In this document: piece by piece, positions 1,231 through 56,293 of the stretch | Layout: every line of letters begins with the position of its first letter | Numbering within the stretch: position 1 is the stretch's first letter | NCBI RefSeq assembly: GCF_003859795.1 | Contig: NZ_RQYI01000001.1 | Coordinates: forward strand, 124,001-188,000 | Source: Alloprevotella sp. OH1205_COT-284 | GTDB taxonomy: Bacteria; Bacteroidota; Bacteroidia; Bacteroidales; Bacteroidaceae | DNA: 64,000 bases | Reading direction: 5' to 3' | Notes under the pieces: generated by a model | What the model saw: the letters and a program-made list of their open reading frames with translations, nothing else | Database searches by the model: none | What the model was told of the DNA's origin: nothing | Position numbers and translations under genes: made by a program

Positions 1231-1234
1231 GGTG

Positions 1235-1242
1235 CAAAGATA
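1235..1242 (-). promoter_or_regulatory. -7 promoter box of the RNA methyltransferase gene
   Basis: The reverse strand reads TATCTTTG, the Bacteroidota -7 consensus TAnnTTTG. Only four bases (CACC) separate it from the ATG at 1230, which predicts a leaderless or nearly leaderless mRNA. Confidence 0.6.
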
Positions 1243-1306
1243 ATCGTTTTCGACAATATTCTCATTCCGACAGGTCAAAAGCTCTACAAAAAACATCGGG
1301 AAAAGT

Positions 1307-1636
1307 TGTGGAAAAACCTGTGCAAAACACAAGGAAAACCTTGTTGAAAAGATGAGGAAAACATTTTACGGACAATCCGTTTCAACCTACTTTCATTCTC
1401 CACCGTTTTCGCCCGTTTTTACAGATCGTTTCCACCAAAAAACACCCGTTTTTTCGCAACCTTCAAACCTTTCCTAAAAATAAGATTTACAAAGGTTTGA
1501 TTCGTCAATATCCCCATTTATCCACACTTTCCGCAATCTATATCAATAACCACAGGTATCTTTCTGTTTTCTTATAAACAATATCTTTTTTGAAAAAAGA
1601 AAGAAATATGTTTTTATTGATGTGGGCTGTGGAAAA
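1307..1636. other. DnaA-box cluster with AT-rich tract: candidate replication origin
   Basis: The 556-bp gap between the divergent methyltransferase and ilvA genes holds a perfect DnaA box TTATCCACA at 1518-1526 and two one-mismatch boxes, TGTGGAAAA (inverse of TTTTCCACA) at 1307-1315 and 1628-1636, plus a weaker AATAACCACA near 1546. Between the last two lies an AT-rich run (about 1560-1620) that could serve as an unwinding element. This is the composition expected of a bacterial oriC, but dnaA is not in view and no skew calculation was possible. A chance cluster is the main alternative. Confidence 0.4.
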
Positions 1637-1681
1637 TCATTTTTGAAATCGTAAATGGGCATGTAGAAAAAATAAAATGAT

Positions 1682-1689
1682 TATTTTTG
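1682..1689 (+). promoter_or_regulatory. -7 promoter box of ilvA
   Basis: TATTTTTG matches TAnnTTTG and lies about 95 bases before the ilvA start. No clear -33 TTTG is present at the usual distance. Confidence 0.45.
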
Positions 1690-1786
1690 CAACTTCTGTT
1701 TGATCATTGTCTTCTTTTGAAAAATTGACGGCCGGCTGTTTTGAAAGCCTCCTTTTTCACAGAAGAAACCTATATCCCATATTGTT

Positions 1787-41723: not shown

Positions 41724-44510
41724 TCAGTGGGCTTCCAGCCAGTTCTTGCCCTCTCCGCATTCGGCGAGCAGGGGCACCCGCATGGCGTAGGCACGTTCCA
41801 TTTCTTCCACCACGAGGGTGCGGACGCGTTCGAGTTCGTCGAAAGGCACGGAGAAGTTGAGTTCGTCGTGTACTTGCAGGATCATTTTTGTTTGCAAACC
41901 TTCGTGTTGCAATCTGCGGTCAATGGCGATCATGGCCAGTTTGATGATGTCGGCCGCCGTGCCTTGAATGGGAGCATTGACGGCATTGCGCTCGGCATAC
42001 CCCCTCACGGTGGCGTTGCGCGAACTGATGTCGGGCAGGTAGCGTCGGCGTCCGAAGAGGGTGAGTATGTGTCCTGTTTCGCGCGCTCGTTCGATGCTTT
42101 CGTCCATGAATTCCCGTACGCGAGGATAGGTGGCGAAGTAGTTGTCAATAAGTTCCTTGGCCTCTGTTCGCGATACGCCCATGCGCTCCGAAAGTCCGAA
42201 GGCGGAGATGCCGTAGATGATGCCGAAATTTGCGGTCTTGGCCTTTCGGCGTTCGTCTCGGTCGATTTCTTCGAGCGGCTTTTGAAAGATGCGTGCCGCC
42301 GTGGCGGCGTGGATGTCGCGGCCGTTGTTGAAATCGTCGATCATGTGGGTGTCGCCACTCAGGTGTGCCATGATGCGCAGCTCGATTTGGGAGTAGTCGG
42401 CACTGAAAAAGGTGCAGCCTTCTTCGGGTACGAAAGCGCGTCGAATTTCTCGCCCGTCGTCGCCGCGCACGGGAATGTTTTGCAAGTTCGGATTTGAAGA
42501 GGATAGGCGGCCGGTGGCCGTTACGGCCTGATTGAAAGAGGTGTGGATGCGACGGGTGTGGGGGTTGATGAGTTGCGGAAGGGCTTCGACGTAGGTGGAA
42601 AGCAGCTTTTTCAAGCCGCGGTGCGCCAGAATTTTTTCGACGATAGGATGCTTTCCGCGGAGGCTTTCGAGCACTTCTTCGGAGGTGGAATATTGTCCGG
42701 TTTTGGTCTTTTTGGCTTTCTCCGATATTTTGAGTTCGTCAAACAGCACTTCGCCCACTTGTTTTGGAGAGGTGATGGTAAACTCACGCCCGGCCATTTC
42801 GTAAATCTCGTTTTCGAGGCGGAGCATTCTTTCTCTGAACTGGTTGCCGGTTTCTCGGAGTGCATCGGTGTCGAGTCGCACGCCGTTTTGTTCCATTCGT
42901 GCCAAGACGGGCATGAGGGGCATTTCGATGTTGCGAAACACGTCGTAAACTTCCTTTTCTCTCATCTCGGTTTCGAGCGGAGCTTTGAGGGCGAGAGTGA
43001 TGTCGGCATCTTCGCAAGCGTAGTCTTTGATTTCGGACGGCGGGAGGTCGGCCATGTTTTTTTGTGTGCGACCGCTGCCGATGAGTTCCTCGATACGAAT
43101 GGTGCGATAGTGTAGATAGACTTCGGCCAAGTGGTCCATGTTGTGCCGCTGTTCGGGTTGCACGACATAGTGTGCGAGCATGGTGTCGAAAAGTCGGCCT
43201 TTGATCTCGACGCCATACCGTGAGAGAACGATGATGTCGTATTTGAGATTTTGCCCCACCTTCTCTGTTTTTTCGCTTTCAAAGAACGGACGGAAAACTT
43301 CGAGCATTTTTCGAGCTTCGATTGTTTCACGTGGAACAACAACATACCAAGCGCAATTTCCCTCGACCGCAAAGCTTATTCCCACCAATTCCGCCTCGTG
43401 GGCATTGACGGAAGTCGTTTCGGTGTCGAATGCTACGACTTCAAATGTCAATAGTTTTCTACAAACTTCTTGGGCTTTTTCAAGATTATCAATGAGATGA
43501 TATTCGTGCTCTCTTGTTTTTATGCTCTCAAAATCGGCGTCGAAATCGTTTTCCGACAAGTTGCTCGAATCTGAGCCAAAGAGAGAGGGGCTGGGATCGA
43601 ATAGCGAGGGCTCTTTGTTGGGATTTTTTTGCAATTTCTTCTCTTCGTCCAAAAAACGAGTGATGAAGGAGCGAAATTCCAATTCTTCAAAGATTTTTCT
43701 CAGTTCTTCCTTGTTCGGCTCCTTGCGGCTCATTTTCTCCCAGTCGAGTTGTAGGGGGACGTCGGTTTTGATCGTGGCCAGAAATTTGGAAAGACGGATC
43801 AGTTCGGCATTCTCCTCCACTTTTTTCTTTTGTGCGCCTTTGAGGCGATCGGACGAGGCGAGGAGATTTTCGACGGATCCGAATTCTCCGATGAGCTTAA
43901 TGGCTGTTTTTTCTCCCACACCGGGACATCCCGGAATGTTGTCGGCCGTGTCGCCCATCAGTCCGAGCAAGTCTATGACTTGGGTGGGGTGGTCGATCGA
44001 GTATTTCCGACAAACCTCCTCGACACCGAGTTTCTCCAATCCGGCGGCTCCCGTTCCGGGGCGACACATGGTGATGTTTTCGGCCACGAGTTGGGCATAG
44101 TCTTTGTCGGGGGTGATCATGTAGACCTCCACGCCTTCTTGTGCGGCCTTTCGGGCGATTGTCCCGATAACGTCGTCGGCTTCATAGCCGGGCACTTCGA
44201 TGGTGGCAATTTGGTAGGCTTCGACGATGCGTTTGATTTCGGGCACCGCCCATTTGATGTCTTCGGGCGTGGCTTCGCGGTGGGCTTTGTAGTCGGGGAA
44301 GATGTCGTGACGGAATGTGCCTCCGGGCGGATCGAAACAAACGGCCGCGAAGTCGGGGCGGAGGGTGCGAAGGAGGTCTTCGAGCGTATTGACAAAACCG
44401 AAAACGGCCGAGGTGTTCTGACCTTTTGAATTGACGCGCGGAGAGCGGATCAAGCCGTAGTAGGCACGGAAGATCAAAGCATAAGCGTCAAGGAGTATTA
44501 ATTTTTGCAT
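41724..44510 (-). CDS. polA: DNA polymerase I
   Basis: The 928-residue protein has a 5'-3' exonuclease domain (residues 1-300; LILLDAYALIFRAYYG, CPGVGEKTAIKLIGEFG), a 3'-5' exonuclease domain with the Asp-Glu pair in VAFDTETTSVN, and the polymerase domain with motif A DYSQIELRIMAHLSGD, motif B RRKAKTANFGIIYG and motif C LQVHDELNF. It fills gaps and removes RNA primers. The ATG at 44510 is used; the frame extends upstream into the divergent polyprenyl-synthase region. The coding sequence contains a perfect parS-like site at 43323-43338. Confidence 0.96.
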   Translation of the reverse strand: MQKLILLDAYALIFRAYYGLIRSPRVNSKGQNTSAVFGFVNTLEDLLRTLRPDFAAVCFDPPGGTFRHDIFPDYKAHREATPEDIKWAVPEIKRIVEAYQIATIEVPGYEADDVIGTIARKAAQEGVEVYMITPDKDYAQLVAENITMCRPGTGAAGLEKLGVEEVCRKYSIDHPTQVIDLLGLMGDTADNIPGCPGVGEKTAIKLIGEFGSVENLLASSDRLKGAQKKKVEENAELIRLSKFLATIKTDVPLQLDWEKMSRKEPNKEELRKIFEELEFRSFITRFLDEEKKLQKNPNKEPSLFDPSPSLFGSDSSNLSENDFDADFESIKTREHEYHLIDNLEKAQEVCRKLLTFEVVAFDTETTSVNAHEAELVGISFAVEGNCAWYVVVPRETIEARKMLEVFRPFFESEKTEKVGQNLKYDIIVLSRYGVEIKGRLFDTMLAHYVVQPEQRHNMDHLAEVYLHYRTIRIEELIGSGRTQKNMADLPPSEIKDYACEDADITLALKAPLETEMREKEVYDVFRNIEMPLMPVLARMEQNGVRLDTDALRETGNQFRERMLRLENEIYEMAGREFTITSPKQVGEVLFDELKISEKAKKTKTGQYSTSEEVLESLRGKHPIVEKILAHRGLKKLLSTYVEALPQLINPHTRRIHTSFNQAVTATGRLSSSNPNLQNIPVRGDDGREIRRAFVPEEGCTFFSADYSQIELRIMAHLSGDTHMIDDFNNGRDIHAATAARIFQKPLEEIDRDERRKAKTANFGIIYGISAFGLSERMGVSRTEAKELIDNYFATYPRVREFMDESIERARETGHILTLFGRRRYLPDISSRNATVRGYAERNAVNAPIQGTAADIIKLAMIAIDRRLQHEGLQTKMILQVHDELNFSVPFDELERVRTLVVEEMERAYAMRVPLLAECGEGKNWLEAH
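43323..43338. promoter_or_regulatory. parS-like centromere site 1 (inside polA)
   Basis: TGTTTCACGTGGAACA is a near-palindromic 16-mer matching the ParB-binding parS consensus TGTTNCACGTGAAACA apart from one common substitution (GAAACA to GGAACA). It lies within the polA coding sequence. Confidence 0.75.
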
Positions 44511-44530
44511 GTATCCTGTTTTTTGACCCT

Positions 44531-44538
44531 CAAAAGTA
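44531..44538 (-). promoter_or_regulatory. -7 promoter box of polA
   Basis: Reverse strand TACTTTTG, 20 bases before the polA start. Confidence 0.5.
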
Positions 44539-44571
44539 ATCAAAATAATCTGCATTATCCCCTTTTTTTCG

Positions 44572-44579
44572 TACTTTTG
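44572..44579 (+). promoter_or_regulatory. -7 promoter box of the polyprenyl synthase gene
   Basis: TACTTTTG on the forward strand, divergent from the polA box 33 bases away, so the two promoters overlap. Confidence 0.5.
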
Positions 44580-44676
44580 TAAATTGAAAAAATAAAAGTT
44601 TCTTATTTCTCTCAAAAACAGAAGTTTATACTTCTCCATTGCGAAACTTTCAACCTCTCGTATCCGTGTTTCCCCG

Positions 44677-45651
44677 ATGGACCAATTGCTACAAATTCGA
44701 CAACCCGTGGCCGCCGAGTTGGAGCATTTCGATCTCCTCTTCGATGAAGTCCTCACGCATGAAGAAGATTTCATGAGTAAGGCCTTGGCCTATGTGCGCA
44801 GCCGAAAGGGCAAAATGATGCGTCCCATTCTCGTGTTGCTTTTGGCCAAGGAATGGGGCGAAATCGGCATGCCCACTTTGCGCAGTGCCGTCACCCTCGA
44901 ATTGCTCCACACCTCCTCGCTCATTCACGACGACGTGGTCGATGAAAGCAACGAGCGTCGGGGGCAAGCCAGTCTTCATGCCTTGTATAGCAATAAGATA
45001 GCCGTTTTGCTTGGCGACTACCTGTTGGCACAAACCCTCAGACAGTCGGCACAAACGGGCAATCTGTCGGTGGTCGATGCCGTGGCGCGTCTCGGATCGA
45101 CCCTTTCGGAAGGAGAGATTTTGCAGTTGTCCAATGTCGGCAACGAGGAGTTTTCGGAAGCGGCTTATTACACCATTATTCGTCGAAAAACGGCAGCTCT
45201 CTTTGAGGCCTGCGGCGAATTGGCGGCGGTTTCGATGGAGGCCGATGACGATTTCACACGGCGTGTTCGCACTTTCGGCGATATTGTCGGCACATGTTTT
45301 CAAATTCGCGACGACATTTTTGATTACTACGACGATCCCGCGATAGGGAAACCCAGAGGAAACGACATGGCAGAGGGAAAACTCACCCTTCCCCTCATTT
45401 ATGCGCTCAACCAAACGGCCGACCCAAAAGCTGCCGAACTCGCACGAAAAGTGAAGCAAGGAAAGGCCACGCCCGATGAAATTGCCTTCCTCATTGCGTT
45501 TGCCAAGGAAAACGGCGGCATCGACTACGCCGAACGCCGCATGAATGAATTGCGCGATGAGGCTTTTGCGCTCATTGCCGATTTTAGAAACGCTGCCGTC
45601 AAAACCGCTTTGCAGCAATACATCGACTTTGTGATAGGACGCGCCCATTGA
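44677..45651 (+). CDS. trans-polyprenyl diphosphate synthase
   Basis: The 324-residue enzyme extends farnesyl diphosphate with isopentenyl units to make a long chain, probably for menaquinone. The first aspartate-rich motif is in LIHDDVVDESNERRG (about residue 85) and the second in QIRDDIFDYYDDPAIGKPRG (about 210), with KMMRPILVLL upstream. Chain length cannot be read safely. It diverges from polA, with overlapping promoters, and ends at a terminator that overlaps its stop codon. Confidence 0.9.
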   Translation: MDQLLQIRQPVAAELEHFDLLFDEVLTHEEDFMSKALAYVRSRKGKMMRPILVLLLAKEWGEIGMPTLRSAVTLELLHTSSLIHDDVVDESNERRGQASLHALYSNKIAVLLGDYLLAQTLRQSAQTGNLSVVDAVARLGSTLSEGEILQLSNVGNEEFSEAAYYTIIRRKTAALFEACGELAAVSMEADDDFTRRVRTFGDIVGTCFQIRDDIFDYYDDPAIGKPRGNDMAEGKLTLPLIYALNQTADPKAAELARKVKQGKATPDEIAFLIAFAKENGGIDYAERRMNELRDEAFALIADFRNAAVKTALQQYIDFVIGRAH

Positions 45652-45667
45652 GGCGCGTTTTACTTTT
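45639..45667 (+). terminator. terminator of the polyprenyl synthase gene
   Basis: ACGCGCC (45639-45645) pairs with GGCGCGT (45652-45658) around CATTGA, then TTTACTTTTTT. Confidence 0.75.
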
Positions 45668-45809
45668 TTCGAGCTGCTTGTGTTGGAGAGCGGATAGAGA
45701 GTGTGGGAGAGTGTGGGGGACGAAGAGAAACTTGTGTTACAGCTATTTGCTTCAAAAAATACCGAAGCCTTGAACGAAGCATTCACTCCTGCCATGGTTG
45801 CGGAAAAAC

Positions 45810-45866
45810 TTACCTCAGAGATAGAAATTTCTTCCTCAGAGGTAGAAAAAACGGGCTCAGAGGTAG
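45810..45866. repeat. 21-bp-periodic CTACCTCAGAG repeat, locus 3
   Basis: TTACCTCAGAG at 45810-45820 and CTTCCTCAGAG at 45831-45841 are again 21 bp apart, followed by CTCAGAGGTAG at 45834-45844 and 45856-45866 and then ATTTTCGG as at locus 2. The 502-bp gap 45652-46153 holds in addition only the two flanking terminators. Confidence 0.65.
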
Positions 45867-46094
45867 ATTTTCGGCCGTTTCATCTGATATTTTTTTCGAG
45901 GGTGCGCGGAGAGATGGAAACGCCTTCCGACAGTCGAAAGTCGGATGTTGAAAATGGAGCATTGCGTTCTGTGGCGTCTTCATCTTTATGCCGGGCATTG
46001 ATTTGAAGGAGCATTGCCAACGGATAAATGGTCGAAAAACGGCATTTGGCGATGTTTTGCTTTCCTCGAAGCACCGTTCTGCTTTGTGCAAAAG

Positions 46095-46133
46095 AAAACG
46101 CGCAGCGTGGCCTGAAAAGCCGCGTTGCGCGTT
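46095..46133 (-). terminator. terminator of deoC
   Basis: ACGCGCAGCGTGGC pairs with GCCGCGTTGCGCGT; on the reverse strand GTTTTCTTTTG follows. Confidence 0.7.
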
Positions 46134-46153
46134 TGTTGTGTGTAAAGGGAGGC

Positions 46154-47089
46154 TTAATACTTCGTTCCGCTTCCGGAGAAGGGAGTGATGTCTTCTCCCA
46201 AAATGGCCGAGGCCAAGAGGTTGGCCAAACGGCTCGTGCCGATGCGGAAATGACCGTCCTTGCAGAATTCTTCGCCAAGCACTTCGGCCACAATGGTGTA
46301 GAAGTCTACGGCTTCGTCTACCGTTTTGATGCCGCCGGCGGCCTTGAAACCTACAAGGCGACCCGTCTTTTCGTGATATTCCTTGATGGCGTTACACATC
46401 ACATAGGCCGCTTCGGGAGTGGCGGCAACGGCTACTTTTCCGGTTGAGGTCTTGATGAAATCCGCTCCGGCATACATCGAGAGGATAGAGGCCTTTTTGA
46501 TTTCGGAGGCGGTTTTCAGTTCGCCGGTTTCGAGGATAACTTTGAGGGCGCGATCGCCGCAAACGTCTTTGAGTTCGGCAATTTCGTCGGCACAAGTCTC
46601 ATAGTCGCCGCTTTGGAACGTGCCCACGGAGAGCACCATGTCGATTTCGTCGGCACCGTCGGCCAAAGCAAGTGAAGTTTCCACGGTTTTCACTTCGAGG
46701 AATGTTTGCGAAGCGGGGAAACCACCGCTCACGCAGGCCACTTTCACGCCGTCGGCTTCGAGGCTTTGGCTCACGGTGGAGGCAAAGTTGGGATAAACGC
46801 AGATGGTGGCGAGGGGAGGAAGGTCGGGGTGAGCATCGCTCCAACGGTTCACGTTTTCGGTGAACTGCAACACGCTTTCCTGCGAGTCGGTCACGGTGAG
46901 CGTGGTCAGCTCAACGGTGCTGAGAAGGGTTTTGAGCACTTCGGGCGTGTTGTATTTCTCACGATTTTCGGCCACAATCTTGCGAACGGCTGCGCTCACC
47001 TGCGCATCGTCGAGGTTCATGTCGTACAAAGCAAACGTTTGTTCGTACTTGTCTGTTTGGTGGAGTTCACCTTGATGTTGTTCTGACAT
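46154..47089 (-). CDS. deoC: deoxyribose-phosphate aldolase
   Basis: The 311-residue class I aldolase cleaves deoxyribose 5-phosphate in deoxynucleoside catabolism. The Schiff-base lysine is in VGFKAAGGIKT and the second lysine in GADFIKTSTGKVAVAA; EIDMVLSVGTFQSGDYE is the family core. The N-terminal region is about 60 residues longer than E. coli DeoC, as in the longer subfamily. Start at 47089 (MSEQHQGELHQ) or two codons upstream. It stands between the polyprenyl synthase and dtd genes without an obvious operon partner. Confidence 0.93.
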   Translation of the reverse strand: MSEQHQGELHQTDKYEQTFALYDMNLDDAQVSAAVRKIVAENREKYNTPEVLKTLLSTVELTTLTVTDSQESVLQFTENVNRWSDAHPDLPPLATICVYPNFASTVSQSLEADGVKVACVSGGFPASQTFLEVKTVETSLALADGADEIDMVLSVGTFQSGDYETCADEIAELKDVCGDRALKVILETGELKTASEIKKASILSMYAGADFIKTSTGKVAVAATPEAAYVMCNAIKEYHEKTGRLVGFKAAGGIKTVDEAVDFYTIVAEVLGEEFCKDGHFRIGTSRLANLLASAILGEDITPFSGSGTKY

Positions 47090-47244
47090 AATCATTAGTC
47101 GTCCGTCGGCCTGCCCCCGTGTGCCGTCTTGCTGTGGCAATGGCTCGGAAAAGTCGGCGGATGGTTAAACGGATTTATAGTAGCAAAACCTGCCCTCCCC
47201 ACGGGGGAGTTGAGAGGGTAGGGGATGAGAAAATGCGAAACGCT

Positions 47245-47697
47245 TTACTCTTTGTTGCGCGTGTCCATGCAGATCGTGACAGGACCGTCGTTGAGAAGAT
47301 CTACCTGCATGTCGGCACCGAAACGGCCGGTGGCCACGGGCTTTCCGAGCGATTGGCCGAGGGTTTTCACAAATGCTTCGTAGAGCGGAACGGATATGTC
47401 GGGCGGCGCGGCGCGAGTATAGCCGGGGCGATTGCCTTTTTTATAAGAAGCCATGAGCGTGAATTGGCTCACGACGAGCACTTCTCCATCGATGTCGGCA
47501 ACACTGCGGTTCATCACCCCTTGGTCGTCGTCGAAAATGCGAAGCGCGACGACTTTTTTGACTAACCAATCTATATCTTCTTGATTATCTGTGTTTTCTA
47601 TTCCGAGAAGGATAAGAAGACCTTGGTTGATTTGGCTGAAAATTTGGCCGCCGATGCTGACGCCGGCATGGCGAACGCGTTGAATGACGATTCTCAT
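47245..47697 (-). CDS. dtd: D-aminoacyl-tRNA deacylase
   Basis: The 150-residue enzyme hydrolyses D-amino acids from tRNA. Signatures are MRIVIQRVRHAGVSIGG, the catalytic SQFTLMA motif (about residue 77) and the C-terminal LLNDGPVTICMDTR (Gly-cisPro-like NxGPVT). It lies 10 bp after uvrC on the same strand and may be cotranscribed, but a -7 box (47703-47710) five bases before the ATG could also give a leaderless message. Confidence 0.94.
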   Translation of the reverse strand: MRIVIQRVRHAGVSIGGQIFSQINQGLLILLGIENTDNQEDIDWLVKKVVALRIFDDDQGVMNRSVADIDGEVLVVSQFTLMASYKKGNRPGYTRAAPPDISVPLYEAFVKTLGQSLGKPVATGRFGADMQVDLLNDGPVTICMDTRNKE

Positions 47698-47702
47698 TGT
47701 TG

Positions 47703-47710
47703 CAAAGTTA
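47703..47710 (-). promoter_or_regulatory. -7 promoter-like box directly before dtd
   Basis: Reverse strand TAACTTTG, overlapping the uvrC stop codon and ending five bases before the dtd ATG. Confidence 0.4.
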
Positions 47711-49549
47711 GTCTTTTTCTTTGAAATCCGGATGAATCTGCATAAAAAAGTGATTTCCTCTCGCCTTGCCCAACACCTTCTGAATTTGTTCGAGTGTGGC
47801 TTCTTTAATGCGTTTTACGCTGCCAAACTCTTTGAGCAATGACGCTTTCGACTTTTCGCCGATGCCGCTGATGTTGTCCAGTTCGGAAGAAAGTTGGCGT
47901 TTTGAACGCTTGTCGCGGTGAAAGCTGATGGCGAAGCGGTGTACTTCGTCCTGCATTTGTGTGAGTAGTTTGAAGAGGAGCGTGTCGGGACGTACGGCCA
48001 CCGACGTGTACGACGCTCCGAAGAGCATCTCCCGTGTGCGGTGCTTCCCGTCTTTCACCAAACCTGCAATCGGGATCGACAAACCCAGCTTCTCGACCAC
48101 AATGCTCCGTATGGCCTCCATTTGTCCTTTACCGCCGTCGGCAATGATGAGGTCGGGCAGTGGGGCTTCTTCGGCCACAAGGCGGCTGTATCTGCGCTCC
48201 ACCACTTCTCGCATCGAAGCGTAGTCGTCGGCTCCCACCACGGATTTGATGTTGAATTTACGGTATTGTTTTTTTGCCGGTTTCAGTTTTTCAAACACCA
48301 CGCAGGCTGCCACGGCGTCTTCTCCCGATATGTTTGAGTTGTCGAACAGCTCGATGTGCATCGGCAGGGAGGGTAGGGCGAGTTGGGTTTGAATTTCTTT
48401 CATCAACCTCACTTGCTTTTGCTCCGGATTGAGCTTTTCGGCCTGTTTGAGGCGGTCAAACTTAAATTGCCTGACATTCTGCCGCGATAGGTCGAGCAGG
48501 GTTTTCTTGCCTCCCATTTGCGGTATGGTCTGTCGGGCGTATTCTTCGGGTAACTCCACGGGAAAAGGCAGCACCAGCTCTTTGGATTGAGAGTCGAAGC
48601 GTTTGCGCATTTCCACGATGCCGAGTGCCAGAAGCTCGTCGTCGGTTTCATCGAGCTTCTTTTTAAATTCAAATGTGAACGATTGGGTGATTGCACCGTT
48701 TACCACGTGTAGAAAATTGATGTATGCGTTTTTTTCGTCGCTTTCCATAGAGAAAACGTCGATGTCGTAGTTCACGTTCGACACTACTTCCGATTTTGCA
48801 CGGAAATTCTCGATCAATTCATACTTCTTTTTGAGTACATGTGCCTCCTCGAAACGCATTTCTTCCGACAAAAGCTCCATTTCTTCGCGCAGTTTTCGTG
48901 CAACTTCGCGTGTGTTGCCTTTCAAAATCTCCCGACAAGCCTCGATGTTGTTCAAATAATCTTCTCGAGATTGCTTCCCACAGCAGGGAGCGGCACATTT
49001 TCGGATGTGATAGTCCAAACAAACCTCGTATTTCCCCGATTTTACCCCTTCTTCCGTCATTGGTTGCCGACACGGCCGCGGATGATAAAGTCTTTGACAC
49101 AGCTCCAATAGGGCGTGCATGGTGGGCAAATGGCTGTATGGGCCATAGTAGGTCGCGCCTTTTCGATCGATTTTTCGAGTGCTGAACACTCTCGGCAGAT
49201 ATTCCTTCGTAATGGCGATTGACGGATAGGTCTTGTCGTCTTTCAACAATACGTTATAGCGCGGTTTGTATTGCTTGATGAGCGAATTTTCCAAAAGTAG
49301 GGCGTCTTCCTCCGAATTGACCACGGTGTAGGTGATGTTTCGTATTTTCGAGACCAATACACGCGTTTTTCCGCTTTGTCGGTCTTTGTTGAAATAGGAA
49401 GCCACGCGGCGTTTCAAATTCTTAGCCTTTCCCACGTAGATAATGCTCCCCGTTTCGTCATAGTATTGGTAGCTCCCCGGAAGTTCGGGGAGATTGTTTA
49501 CGATGCCTTTCAAATGGCTTTCGAGTGCCTTTCTGTCGTTGTCGGTCAT
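47708..49549 (-). CDS. uvrC: UvrABC excinuclease subunit C
   Basis: The 613-residue nuclease makes the two incisions of nucleotide-excision repair. The N-terminal GIY-YIG domain has LPGSYQYYDETGSIIYVGKA (about 20-40), followed by a Cys-rich region (YHIRKCAAPCCGK), a UvrB-binding UVR motif (EEMELLSEEMRFEEAHVLKKK), the RNase H-like C-terminal endonuclease (ELFDNSNISGEDAVA, DLIIADGGKGQMEA), and a helix-hairpin-helix pair near the end. Start at 49549 is used. dtd follows by 10 bp. Confidence 0.96.
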   Translation of the reverse strand: MTDNDRKALESHLKGIVNNLPELPGSYQYYDETGSIIYVGKAKNLKRRVASYFNKDRQSGKTRVLVSKIRNITYTVVNSEEDALLLENSLIKQYKPRYNVLLKDDKTYPSIAITKEYLPRVFSTRKIDRKGATYYGPYSHLPTMHALLELCQRLYHPRPCRQPMTEEGVKSGKYEVCLDYHIRKCAAPCCGKQSREDYLNNIEACREILKGNTREVARKLREEMELLSEEMRFEEAHVLKKKYELIENFRAKSEVVSNVNYDIDVFSMESDEKNAYINFLHVVNGAITQSFTFEFKKKLDETDDELLALGIVEMRKRFDSQSKELVLPFPVELPEEYARQTIPQMGGKKTLLDLSRQNVRQFKFDRLKQAEKLNPEQKQVRLMKEIQTQLALPSLPMHIELFDNSNISGEDAVAACVVFEKLKPAKKQYRKFNIKSVVGADDYASMREVVERRYSRLVAEEAPLPDLIIADGGKGQMEAIRSIVVEKLGLSIPIAGLVKDGKHRTREMLFGASYTSVAVRPDTLLFKLLTQMQDEVHRFAISFHRDKRSKRQLSSELDNISGIGEKSKASLLKEFGSVKRIKEATLEQIQKVLGKARGNHFFMQIHPDFKEKD

Positions 49550-49650
49550 GGTCAAGCGAGATGAAATTGGACTTTTGCGTACGGCTGCCAATAGCTATTT
49601 CGCGAAGCTGTTGAGTAAAGGTTGCCGAATTGATCGTGCGAAATAAAGAA

Positions 49651-49676
49651 ACGGACGGCAAAATGCTGCCGTCCGT
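49651..49676 (-). terminator. terminator of apt
   Basis: ACGGACGGCA (49651-49660) pairs with TGCCGTCCGT (49667-49676); TTCTTTATTTC follows on the reverse strand. Confidence 0.6.
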
Positions 49677-49740
49677 GATGTTGGGAGGCAGAGAGTGGAT
49701 TTTGATGCTTTCGTGTATGCTCTGCCGTTGCGTCTGTGTC

Positions 49741-50277
49741 TTAATTGTAAAGCGTGAGGAGGGTGGTAATATCGGCTTTGTTTCCCAAAAACTCGCGTCC
49801 TTCCAATCCTTCCATGCGAAGTTCGATGATGAAATTGACGAAAATGTCTTTCACGCCGAATGACTCTACCAAATCAATGGCCGCTTTCATCGAACCGCCG
49901 GTTGCGAGCAAGTCGTCGTGAATTAAAACCACGTCTTTCGGTGAAAACGCGTCGGTGTGGATTTCTATGACGTCTTCGCCATATTCTTTGCCATATTTCA
50001 TTTGGCGTGTGTCGCCCGGAAGTTTTCCGATCTTTCTGCACATCACGAATCCGGCTCCGAGTTCGGCGGCCAAAATTGCGCCCATCACAAAACCGCGGCT
50101 TTCGATGCCTACGACCTTTGTGATGCCCTTTTCTTTGTAGATACGCACCATTTCATCGAGCATTTCTCGTATGCAGGTCGGATCTTTGAAAAGCGTGGAT
50201 ACGTCTTTGAATTGGATGCCGGGTTTCGGAAAATCGGGAATGTTTCTCAGATGAGCGAGCAACAATTCTTTTTTCAT
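49741..50277 (-). CDS. apt: adenine phosphoribosyltransferase
   Basis: The 178-residue enzyme salvages adenine to AMP with PRPP. The Apt core is visible: IPDFPKPGIQFKDVSTLF, ESRGFVMGAILAAELGAGF and the PRPP-binding loop VVLIHDDLLATGGSMKAAI. It lies downstream of mnmG on the same strand, 66 bp away, with the second parS-like site in the gap. Confidence 0.95.
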   Translation of the reverse strand: MKKELLLAHLRNIPDFPKPGIQFKDVSTLFKDPTCIREMLDEMVRIYKEKGITKVVGIESRGFVMGAILAAELGAGFVMCRKIGKLPGDTRQMKYGKEYGEDVIEIHTDAFSPKDVVLIHDDLLATGGSMKAAIDLVESFGVKDIFVNFIIELRMEGLEGREFLGNKADITTLLTLYN

Positions 50278-50310
50278 AAAGTCTTGATATTTTGTTGTGT
50301 AATTTGTTTT

Positions 50311-50326
50311 TGTTTCACGTGGAACG
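50311..50326. promoter_or_regulatory. parS-like centromere site 2 (apt-mnmG gap)
   Basis: TGTTTCACGTGGAACG is identical to site 1 at 43323 except for the last base. The two sites are 7.0 kb apart in the same orientation. It is in the 66-bp intergenic gap, so coding constraint does not explain it. Confidence 0.7.
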
Positions 50327-50343: not shown

Positions 50344-52236
50344 TCATCGGCCAAGTAGCACGAGAAGTACGGAAATGTCGGACGGAGAAACTCCGGGTAT
50401 TCGAGAGGCCTGAGCGAGCGTTTCGGGGTTGATGGCTGCGAGTTTTTGGCGTGCTTCGGTGGAGAGTTGCGTCAAGTTTTCGTAGTCGAATTTTCCGATG
50501 ATTTTGATATTCTCCAAACGCTGCATTTTGTCGGCCAAGGATCGTTCGCGTGTGATGTATCCGTCGTATTTGATGAGTATTTCCGCCGCTTCCATGGTTT
50601 CGGCTTTGTCTTCTTGGAGTGCTTGGACTACGGAACGGAAGTTGTTGAGCGTTTCGACAGATTCGTCTTCGATAAAATCCGACAACTGCAATTCGGGGCG
50701 GGCGATGAGTTCAAATAATTTTGCACCATGCGCGAGCTTTTTTGAACCTTTGCGTTCGAGCAGAGGATTGATCTCGGAGGGTTTCAGATTCGTGTTTCTT
50801 GCCAGCGATAGGATTTGCTCTATGCTTTCTTTTTTGCGATGAAATCTTTGTTTTCTTTCCGCGCAGGCCAAACCGTATTGTTCGGCATAGGGTGTGAGGC
50901 GCATGTCGGCATTGTCTTGTCGGAGCAGTATTCTGTATTCTGCGCGCGAAGTAAACATGCGATACGGTTCGTCTACACCTTTATTGACCAAATCGTCGAT
51001 GAGTACGCCGATATAGGCTTCGTCTCTTCCGAGGGTGAAGCGTTCGTTGCCGTTGCAGTGCAAGGCGGCATTGATGCCTGCGACCACCCCTTGTCCGGCG
51101 GCTTCTTCGTAGCCGGTGGTGCCGTTTACTTGTCCGGCAAAGAAAAGACCGCTCATTTTTTTCGATTCCAACGAGTGGTGGAGCTGGGTGGGCGGGAAGA
51201 AATCGTATTCTATGGCGTAGCCCGGACGGTAGATTTTCAAATCGCGAAAACACGGCATCTGTTTCAATGCTTCGATTTGAATGTCCATAGGGAGAGAAGA
51301 CGAAAAACCATTCAGATAAAGCTCGTGTGTGTCGATGCCTTCGGGTTCGAGAAATAGGGGGTGCGATTCTCTTTCTTCAAATGTGACGAGCTTTGTTTCG
51401 ATGGAAGGGCAGTATCGCGGCCCGATCGAACGAATCTGTCCGTTGTAGAGGGGCGATTCGTCGAGCCCTTTTCGCAAAATGCGATGCACTTCGGGATTGG
51501 TGTTGCACGTCCAGCAGGTCAGTTGGGGCAACGGGCGTTCTTGCGAGATGAAAGAAAATCGGTGGAAATCGTTTTCTCCGTGTTGCACCTCCATTTCGTC
51601 GAAATGAACAGACCTCGCGTCGATGCGTACGGGAGTTCCCGTTTTCATGCGCAGGTTTTCGATGCCCATGGCGTTGATGGAGGCGGTGAGCAGGGTAGAT
51701 GCCGGTTCGGCACATCTTCCTCCGGGTATCATTCTCCGTCCGATGTGCATCAGGCCGTTGAGAAATGTTCCGGCCGTGACAATAACGGATTTTGCCGTAA
51801 ACTCCGCGCCCCACACCGTGCGCAGTCCGGTGACGGCACCGTTTTTGGTGGTGATTTCGGCCACTTCGTCTTGCCAGATGTCGAGGTTGTCGGTGTTTTC
51901 CACTCGTTTTCTCCATTCGGCGATGAAGCGTGTGCGGTCGCATTGCGCTCTTGGGCTCCACATGGCAGGGCCTTTGGAGCGGTTGAGCATTCGAAACTGT
52001 ATGGCCGTGGCATCGGTCACTTGTCCGATGTGGCCGCCCAATGCATCGACCTCTCTGACGATCTGCCCTTTGGCAATGCCGCCAACGGCCGGGTTGCAGC
52101 TCATTTGTGCTATTTTGTTCATGTCCATCGTGATGAGCACGGTTTTGGCACCCATGCGTGCCGCTGCGCAGGCGGCCTCACATCCGGCGTGTCCGGCTCC
52201 GATGACGATGACGTCGTATGTAAATGTCTGTTCCAT
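50344..52236 (-). CDS. mnmG: tRNA uridine-5-carboxymethylaminomethyl modification enzyme
   Basis: The 630-residue FAD protein (GidA) acts with MnmE on U34 of several tRNAs. It has the dinucleotide fold VIVIGAGHAGCEAACAAARMG at the N-terminus, the conserved GGIAKGQIVREVDALGG and CNPAVGG elements with catalytic cysteine, and a second signature near YCPSIETKLVTF. mnmE is not in this window. In many bacteria gidA lies close to oriC. A -7 box (TAAATTTG, reverse strand) is at 52244-52251. Confidence 0.96.
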   Translation of the reverse strand: MEQTFTYDVIVIGAGHAGCEAACAAARMGAKTVLITMDMNKIAQMSCNPAVGGIAKGQIVREVDALGGHIGQVTDATAIQFRMLNRSKGPAMWSPRAQCDRTRFIAEWRKRVENTDNLDIWQDEVAEITTKNGAVTGLRTVWGAEFTAKSVIVTAGTFLNGLMHIGRRMIPGGRCAEPASTLLTASINAMGIENLRMKTGTPVRIDARSVHFDEMEVQHGENDFHRFSFISQERPLPQLTCWTCNTNPEVHRILRKGLDESPLYNGQIRSIGPRYCPSIETKLVTFEERESHPLFLEPEGIDTHELYLNGFSSSLPMDIQIEALKQMPCFRDLKIYRPGYAIEYDFFPPTQLHHSLESKKMSGLFFAGQVNGTTGYEEAAGQGVVAGINAALHCNGNERFTLGRDEAYIGVLIDDLVNKGVDEPYRMFTSRAEYRILLRQDNADMRLTPYAEQYGLACAERKQRFHRKKESIEQILSLARNTNLKPSEINPLLERKGSKKLAHGAKLFELIARPELQLSDFIEDESVETLNNFRSVVQALQEDKAETMEAAEILIKYDGYITRERSLADKMQRLENIKIIGKFDYENLTQLSTEARQKLAAINPETLAQASRIPGVSPSDISVLLVLLGR

Positions 52237-54393: not shown

Positions 54394-54556
54394 TCAGGAA
54401 TTTCGAGTGATGGAGGTATAAACGAATACATCTTTTACTTTGTGATCGGAAACGATTTGGTCGGCAAAACTAAGTTGGGAGTAGGGGGAGTCTTTATAGG
54501 GTAAAGACACAAAAAAGAAGGAATAGATAAAATAAAAAGAGTTTTGCAGAGACCCC
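54394..54556 (-). mobile_element. insertion-sequence end fragment A (with transposase-start remnant)
   Basis: The terminal sequence TTTTGCAGAGACCCC (54542-54556), read leftward, is followed by an AT-rich leader ending ACCCTATAAAGAC, where fragments A' (54850) and the 88-bp element (55556) have ACCCYATGAAGG. A short degenerate frame then reads YSQLSFADQIVSDHKVKD before a stop at 54394, like the start of an IS transposase. I take it as a broken IS left end; the family is uncertain (IS5/IS1182-like at best). Confidence 0.45.
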
Positions 54557-54660: not shown

Positions 54661-54734
54661 GGACTTGTAGCTCAGTTGGTTAGAGCAACAGACTCATAAT
54701 CTGGAGGTCCCTGGTTCAAGCCCAGGCTGGTCCA
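54661..54734 (+). tRNA. tRNA with anticodon CAT, probably elongator tRNA-Met
   Basis: The 74-nt cloverleaf has acceptor GGACTTG/CTGGTCC (one mismatch), D stem GCTC/GAGC, anticodon loop CTCATAA, T stem CCTGG/CCAGG and discriminator A. An isoleucine-2 identity (lysidine-modified CAT) cannot be excluded. It sits between two inverted IS ends. Confidence 0.88.
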
Positions 54735-54744
54735 CGCTTCTATT

Positions 54745-54849: not shown

Positions 54850-54958
54850 GACTTCTGCAACACTCTTTTTATTTTATCTATTCCTTCTTTTTTGTGTCTT
54901 TACCCCATGAAGGACGCCTTTGCAAAGGCTCATAAGGACGTCATTCTACGGAATGTGT
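54850..54958 (+). mobile_element. insertion-sequence end fragment A' (inverted copy of A)
   Basis: From 54860 to 54904 this is the inverse of 54500-54543, about 44 bp without change (core ATAGATAAAATAAAAAGAG). It then gives ACCCCATGAAGGACGCC and a 17-codon frame ending TAA at 54958, as a truncated transposase start would. It and fragment A point outward on either side of tRNA-Met. Confidence 0.5.
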
Positions 54959-55032: not shown

Positions 55033-55499
55033 GATTTTTCTACTCGTTATTCCGTTTGCACTACTCCTTAGGTAAGATGCGTTTCAACCGGTTGAGACAT
55101 ATTCGGACAAGCCGAAGAGAGGATGAAAACATTGGGGATAAAAGAAGCAACTTTCTGCCTCTACCGGGACTTTTTCTTTTTTTATCTACATTATCTACAT
55201 TTTGTTGCTTAAATTGCAGATATATAGATTGTTGTGAGTGTAGACAATATGGGGAATTAACTACATTCGTTCTTGCAACCTACACACGGCATGGATAAAG
55301 GTGTGCAGATGTTCGAAATCACGACTATGTAGGCAGTGTAGGTTTTCGGAAAAACTGTCTACATCTGTTTTAGTCTGTGTATCATTGATTTACCTTCTTT
55401 CCATGTATGATGCTAAACCGCCTGCATACACTCGCATATTTCTGAATTTCAGTGATGTAAAAGGTGTAGTGTATGTTTTTCGACTATTTTACGAGATGA
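55033..55499. repeat. 467-bp non-coding repeat, copy 2
   Basis: Direct-orientation partner of 1-466. TGTAGACA and TGTCTACA occur at corresponding places (the tandem pair at the left is TATCTACA here). The copies share the same ends at GATTTTTCTACTCGTTA and TTTTACGAGATGA. It is embedded between IS fragments, and copy 1 lies at the window edge. Confidence 0.75.
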
Positions 55500-55555: not shown

Positions 55556-55643
55556 GAGATCTCTGCAAAATCCCCTTCATAGGGTGAAGATACAAAAAAA
55601 GAATTGACAAAATAAACAAAGAAAATAGTTTTGCAGAGGTCTC
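55556..55643. mobile_element. 88-bp MITE-like element with 15-bp terminal inverted repeats
   Basis: GAGATCTCTGCAAAA (55556-55570) and TTTTGCAGAGGTCTC (55629-55643) are inverted repeats with one mismatch. The interior from 55575 to 55628 matches IS end fragments A and A' (CTTCATAGGGTGAAGATACA). It is best read as an internally deleted derivative of the same IS. No clear target-site duplication is visible. Confidence 0.6.
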
Positions 55644-56040: not shown

Positions 56041-56046
56041 TTTGTG

Positions 56047-56120
56047 CGCTTCAGGATGGGCTTGAACCAACGACCCCCTGATTAACAGTCAGGTGCTCTA
56101 ACCAACTGAGCTACTGAAGC
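56047..56120 (-). tRNA. tRNA-Asn (anticodon GTT), copy 1
   Basis: The 74-nt cloverleaf has acceptor GCTTCAG/CTGAAGC, D stem GCTC/GAGC, anticodon stem CCTGA/TCAGG with loop CTGTTAA, T stem GTTGG/CCATC (one mismatch) and discriminator G. It is identical to the copy at 56161-56234, 40 bp upstream on the same transcript. Confidence 0.93.
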
Positions 56121-56160
56121 AGTATCCTTTTTGTTTTGACCGCCAAGGATGAGCGGTTTG

Positions 56161-56234
56161 CGCTTCAGGATGGGCTTGAACCAACGACCCCCTGATTAAC
56201 AGTCAGGTGCTCTAACCAACTGAGCTACTGAAGC
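56161..56234 (-). tRNA. tRNA-Asn (anticodon GTT), copy 2
   Basis: Identical in sequence to the gene at 56047-56120. As the promoter-proximal copy it follows the -7 box at 56294-56301, and the two are probably cotranscribed and cut from one precursor. Confidence 0.93.
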
Positions 56235-56293
56235 AGTGTGCAAATGTTTCAAAATCCGAAATAAAAAAGCACGGACTTTTGTTGTTTGCGGTG

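Follow-up and report, generated by a model that had tools for sequence, protein, structure and literature searches.

Two putative parS sites in an Alloprevotella contig and the occurrence of parS beside mnmG in Bacteroidota

Chromosomal parS sites lie near the origin of replication, where ParB loads and from which it spreads along the DNA, as is established in the accessible part of the account in PMC7333895. Chromosome conformation capture (Hi-C) work has located parS by the consensus considered here in gut bacteria, including Bacteroides caecimuris, with clusters of sites marking the origin (ori), and the available portion of the same report states that the origin is not systematically found at dnaA (PMC10197239). 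An origin (oriC) far from dnaA is common in Bacteroidetes, according to the part of PMC4755523 at hand, in which the origin of Prevotella intermedia was called from GC skew and DnaA boxes; the main text of PMC4755523 does not mention parS. Here, we describe two 16-mers in a 64,000-nucleotide stretch of contig NZ_RQYI01000001.1 (positions 124,001 to 188,000) of Alloprevotella sp. OH1205_COT-284, hereafter the window, with coordinates counted from its first base. We consider it very probable that the two are chromosomal parS centromere sites of a ParABS system, one lying inside polA and the other beside mnmG, the gene next to which parS is found in most of the loci that we examined across the phylum.

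Two parS-type sites and the ParA-ParB pair

Site 1, TGTTTCACGTGGAACA, occupies positions 43323..43338 of the plus strand, inside polA, and shows no mismatch to the 16-mer. Site 2, TGTTTCACGTGGAACG, occupies positions 50311..50326 of the plus strand in the gap between the stop side of mnmG and the start side of apt, with one mismatch. The two sites are 7 kb apart and share the exact 14-base palindromic core GTTYCACGTGRAAC, the difference in site 2 being confined to one outer base. The original prediction, which was made from the window alone, held that both 16-mers match parS, that one lies in polA coding sequence and the other in the apt-mnmG gap, and that such a repeat within 64 kb is not due to chance. 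Both places and their exact cores were found again, and domain-based gene calls agree with the two locations.

Chance palindromes are extremely improbable as an explanation for the pair. With up to three mismatches allowed, the window gives four rows, which are the same two places read on both strands, against a shuffle mean of 0.93 rows, and 3 of 100 shuffles reach four rows as well, such that the count alone is not decisive at that threshold; the exact core, however, is present twice in the window and in none of 100 dinucleotide-preserving shuffles, and on this ground the chance explanation was rejected. The same conclusion is reached from relatives. Genomes were drawn from the genus, the order and the phylum of the window, the genome under study being counted in each set, and cores were counted by exact match; a looser pattern, in which the inner bases were left free and up to one mismatch was allowed, also finds the control often. 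The exact core is found in 54 of 58 genomes of the genus, 80 of 89 of the order and 84 of 89 of the phylum, whereas the reversed control is found in 1, 3 and 4 genomes of these sets, respectively, and the positions of the sites are conserved across the phylum.

In the whole assembly of OH1205_COT-284 (2,305,284 bases, 95.55% complete) the exact core occurs twice in total and the reversed control does not occur, although, the assembly being split into 93 contigs, a missed site is not fully excludable. Two exact cores in 2.3 Mb, only 7 kb apart, show the rarity and the clustering that are looked for in parS. A search of the genome for the 16-mer with up to two mismatches, which had been proposed as a check, returned both sites and one additional place with two mismatches at position 4321 of contig C1. 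This place was dropped as a third parS site because the reversed control pattern also gives one match, which puts it at chance level. Similar 16-mers spread around the chromosome, the outcome that would have spoken against the original prediction, were not seen in this assembly.

The genome also encodes the proteins that such sites call for. A search returned one ParB_N protein, the open reading frame (ORF) of which lies on contig C29, and therefore on a different contig from the parS sites, directly adjacent to and following a ParA-like ORF with a Walker-type stretch, KGGVGKTTT, that was recognized by eye. The ParB matches solved Spo0J/ParB/Noc chains with a best E value of 4.6e-51. Aligned to Noc, it has Arg in place of a Noc Gln and Gly in place of a Noc Arg. 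According to the accessible part of PMC7383237, ParB proteins show absolute conservation of this Arg and this Gly, and their exchange for Gln and Arg contributes to the change of target from parS to the Noc site. Judged by these residues, the ParB of this genome appears to have parS-type specificity and is a likely cognate of the two sites. Noc-type specificity residues were not found in the sole ParB_N protein; Noc-binding sites (NBS) themselves were not searched for.

The same residues bear on the alternative that a Noc-like or other transcriptional regulator uses the 16-mers as operators, with ParB or a ParB-like repressor controlling mnmG and apt. Site 2 is indeed located 33 bp upstream of the apt start codon and just past mnmG, and in many relatives a site is found just upstream of the mnmG start, but the only ParB_N protein found is of the ParB and not the Noc type, and sites occur on either or both sides of mnmG as well as inside polA and uvrC. 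Positions as varied as these are a poor fit to one operator, and we consider an operator function highly improbable.

Both sites are therefore best read as parS, a reading that we favor because it agrees with their sequence and rarity, with the ParA-ParB pair, with their conservation in relatives and with the nearness of a candidate oriC, and they are almost certainly ordinary, functional sites. By analogy with the known family, ParB dimers would load at each parS site and would spread along the flanking DNA as clamps dependent on cytidine triphosphate (CTP); ParA would then move the ParB-parS complex, with the duplicated origin regions expected to separate first.

parS beside mnmG across the phylum

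The gene accompanying site 2, mnmG (gidA), extends over 50344..52236 of the minus strand, and its downstream neighbor apt, with a phosphoribosyltransferase domain, over 49741..50277 of the same strand. In 30 loci from the genus (L001 and L006-L034), 27 sites adjoin mnmG and three lie in polA. The scans of the order and phylum gave 58 core-bearing loci, which cover part of the core-bearing genomes; mnmG falls within the locus of ~3 kb in 51 of them, and the remaining seven include the polA site of the window. Because these 58 loci were picked by having the core, the converse search was run from MnmG. Thirty-one genomes of the phylum, drawn regardless of parS, were searched for MnmG, and 30 loci were obtained, the one in the window included. 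A core is present within 1.5 kb of mnmG in 29 of the 30 and within 100 bp in 26, with cores on both sides in nine. Most of these loci (22/30) come from classes other than that of the window, and all but one of the 22 have the core.

We also scanned named loci, keeping those with titles that name Bacteroidota, and analyzed the 80 best matches out of at least 586. Nearest in mnmG among them are Prevotella- and Bacteroides-like metagenome-assembled genomes (MAGs) with no more than 69% identity, from which membership of the bacterium in the Bacteroidales is probable; records very close to the genome under study may be missing from the scan. Sixty-eight of the 80 loci have the core. Together they contain 129 cores, of which 126 are no more than 1.5 kb away from mnmG, counting three that fall inside the gene, and the reversed control has no match in 1.50 Mb; 50 of the loci reach 10 kb on both sides of mnmG and the others are shorter. 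Sites flank mnmG on the stop side only in 33 loci, on the start side only in 14, on both sides in 20 and on neither in 13. This makes 67 loci with a flanking site within 1.5 kb against 68 with a core, the difference being a single locus with its near core inside mnmG. In an array spaced at ~40-60 bp, six parS cores are located within 1.2 kb upstream of mnmG in each of L188 (genome G165) and L346 (Flavobacterium).

The genes next to mnmG are far from constant. Neighboring ORFs, called by a crude longest-ORF rule, fall into 14 blastp clusters on the stop side among the 53 loci with a site there, and into four clusters among 31 loci on the start side. One stop-side cluster, of three loci, seems to be an antisense ORF across apt, which leaves ~13 real families. 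Given this many stop-side families, parS has followed mnmG through several changes of neighbor, on that side at any rate. Sites next to mnmG recur throughout the phylum, and on this ground the mnmG-side site in the window is probably old and vertically inherited. The genes gidA, parA and parB frequently lie side by side near oriC in bacteria of other phyla, and the simplest account of the link with mnmG is inheritance from an ancestral origin cluster, together with selection to stay near the origin. A functional coupling of parS to mnmG is possible.

Relative to the original prediction, what is new is that the apt-mnmG site is one case of a phylum-wide arrangement and that the polA site is conserved as DNA within coding sequence. 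A literature search, which covered some sources only in part, found no description of the link between mnmG and parS, and the parS survey of Livny et al. (2007) may list some of these sites. We do not claim the link as unreported, and it is the interesting part of the finding.

parS cores inside polA and uvrC

Site 1 is contained in the ORF of polA (DNA polymerase I), which extends over 41724..44774 of the minus strand and encodes DNA_pol_A and exonuclease domains; the true start is probably downstream of the called ORF start because the first Pfam domain begins at residue 91. On the sense strand of polA the site reads T GTT CCA CGT GAA ACA, which encodes Val-Pro-Arg-Glu-Thr. A polA match is present in 54 of the 58 genomes of the genus, and 30 of these loci were analyzed. 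V-[PS]-R-E-T is encoded at this place in 18 loci, 17 of which have the exact core while the 18th (G008) has one mismatch, and none of the 12 loci without this peptide has the core. Two further genomes, G047 and G056, also carry a polA core, and the remaining 22 were judged from the listed places of core and polA.

It is conceivable that the mnmG-side site is the true parS and that the polA copy is a functionless coincidence of coding. The copy is inside a gene, the exact core is found in at least 19 of the 54 genomes with a polA match and no more than this is counted, and the protein tree of the 30 polA sequences calls for at least six changes of state, which indicates that the site is frequently gained and lost. 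However, if codon usage in these polA genes (site included) is taken as a guide, the peptide would be spelled as the core with a chance of ~0.0016 per sequence, shared ancestry being ignored, and yet 17 of 18 loci spell it in this way. Moreover, the alternation of Pro and Ser in the peptide runs only through the free base (Y) of the parS core, and in genomes G003 and G007 both sites are kept even though they are 53 and 45 kb apart, respectively.

In addition, a different extra site is found in uvrC, a gene that in the window extends over 47708..49591 of the minus strand. Five other species of the genus (G015, G018, G039, G042 and G055) carry the core inside uvrC at the peptide P-F-H-V-E-L (L124:8392, L403:8392, L404:9994, L405:9060 and L413:125). 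The stretches read from G042 and G055 contain no polA core, the listed cores of G018 and G039 are on other contigs than polA, and G015 has no polA match. Taken together, a coincidence in polA is unlikely, and we favor the polA copy as an additional parS site within the genus, apparently kept as DNA despite its coding location. parS sites inside coding genes are known from Bacillus subtilis, and the cores in polA and uvrC suggest that protein sequence can bear the imprint of a centromere. Separately, a second exact TGTTTCACGTGAAACA is present in G023 on the 14.8-kb contig C107 (L409:8236), of which 9.8 kb were read and gave no match to mnmG, polA or uvrC.

These observations could be joined into one proposal, in which selection throughout the phylum (GTDB Bacteroidota) would keep parS with mnmG, for example, through ParB loading or the state of the transcription unit, while dnaA, parAB and the neighbors of mnmG drift, and extra sites would be recruited into polA and uvrC, where they would partly set the protein sequence. 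As a whole, this proposal is tentative, and we consider it rather unlikely.

Predicted origins and comparison with known systems

The left end of the window contains a candidate oriC at 1231..1786, a gap of 66% AT between a SpoU-type methylase gene on the minus strand and a divergent PALP/ACT-domain gene on the plus strand, which is probably a threonine dehydratase. DnaA-box-like sites of the pattern TTWTNCACA are located in the gap at 1307(-), 1319(-), 1518(+, TTATCCACA), 1628(-) and 1753(+). This is the densest such cluster over the 228 kb read from contig C1 (1307-1761, five in less than 500 bp), compared with a maximum of two in 30 simulated contigs, and simulations with the composition of the gap give 0.17 expected sites, with none of 3000 reaching five. 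Cumulative GC skew over the same 228 kb is noisy, with a minimum at about 1-11 kb of the window, after which it rises. The original prediction had placed the window near the origin and named the GC-skew minimum as a point of comparison; on contig C1, both the minimum and the box cluster support that placement. With the candidate oriC inside the window, the parS sites are 42 and 49 kb from it.

Two other places or markers were considered and rejected. The first is the AT-rich, tRNA-bearing gap at 54.2-56.3 kb, which has one TTWTNCACA site (54559) and three one-mismatch sites near 55133; 1231-1786 was preferred because it has five sites of the TTWTNCACA pattern and is near the skew minimum. The second is the gene at 1787 as a conserved marker of oriC, given that three or more boxes are found upstream of its orthologues in 2 of 13 loci, that of the window among them, and fewer than three in the other 11. 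The rejected gap contains tRNA-Asn genes in two identical 79-bp copies (100%) at 56045-56123 and 56159-56237, 114 bp from start to start. It also contains a 59-nt inverted repeat, 95% complementary, at 54492-54550 and 54854-54912, that encloses a tRNA-Met gene (54661-54735), with related pieces, TTTTGCAGAG, at 55609 and 55934. This inverted repeat may be the remnant of a small mobile element.

Origin landmarks were also examined in two long chromosomes of the genus. In G004, a single contig, the lowest cumulative skew in the 186 kb read is at ~1.706 Mb and coincides with a gap of 80% AT that has two box-like sites and is next to a SpoU gene; parS is at 1.687 Mb, 20 kb from this gap. In G003, six boxes, counted with one mismatch allowed, form a cluster at 1.681 Mb that is 11 kb from a SpoU gene and ~12 kb from the lowest skew of the piece read (~1.693 Mb); the two parS sites of this genome are 60 and 113 kb away from the cluster. 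Together with the 42 and 49 kb in the window, these distances place parS near the predicted oriC in all three genomes. By comparison, dnaA is at 2.605 Mb in G004 and 1.082 Mb in G003, far from parS in both, and parB is at 1.284 Mb and 2.066 Mb, respectively, ~0.4-0.5 Mb from parS. When positions were ranked by skew fit, dnaA came 56th of 139 in G003, where the two parS sites came 8th and 13th, and 41st of 147 in G004, where parS came 22nd. An origin at dnaA was rejected because it ranks worse than parS in both fits, and dnaA and parB are poor landmarks in the two chromosomes checked.

In addition to the shuffle counts and the fragmented assembly mentioned above, several observations weigh against the reading of these sites as origin-proximal parS with a general link to mnmG. 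The sites in the window are 42-49 kb away from the candidate oriC and not at it, and if every site one mismatch from TTATCCACA is counted as a box, the candidate has three and is tied with the place near 55133. The two-box candidate of G004 is not the densest place there, the one-mismatch maximum being three near 1772974 (1.773 Mb). GC skew is weak in this group and the fits for G003 and G004 are broad, with parS of G004 only at the rank given and places near 2.2 Mb fitting about as well as 1.7-1.8 Mb. Four of the 58 genomes of the genus have no exact core (G020, G036, G040 and G054); G020 is only 55% complete, and G054, at 89%, shows no core on a single fetched stretch that holds mnmG, apt and polA together. 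Among the 30 mnmG loci of the converse search, one has no core, and its genome (G158) has two cores elsewhere. Finally, 12 of the 80 named loci have no core, including two Saprospiraceae, Runella, Fibrivirga, Phaeodactylibacter, Neolewinella and a Prevotellaceae MAG, two of the 12 having a flank of less than 300 bp on one side.

A parS that is mostly located within tens of bases of one gene, with dnaA and parB elsewhere in the two chromosomes checked, offers a clean test made by nature and suggests a shortcut, in that the origin region of fragmented Bacteroidota genomes may be sought beside mnmG and not dnaA.

The mechanism proposed for the two sites is already known, that of the ParABS centromere. 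The parS sites of gut bacteria identified by Hi-C are reported with no mention of mnmG, or of parS within polA or uvrC, in the available portion of PMC10197239. As with the oriC of P. intermedia, described in the accessible part of PMC4755523, the candidate origin here was called from skew and DnaA boxes and is not beside dnaA. Also close are the chromosomal ParABS systems of B. subtilis, Caulobacter and Pseudomonas, as they are presented in the part of PMC7333895 at hand, with which the locus shares the same 16-bp palindrome, a genomic ParA-ParB pair and a small number of near-origin sites. In contrast to those systems, parB is here located away from parS, and the sites keep close to mnmG and not to dnaA or parAB.

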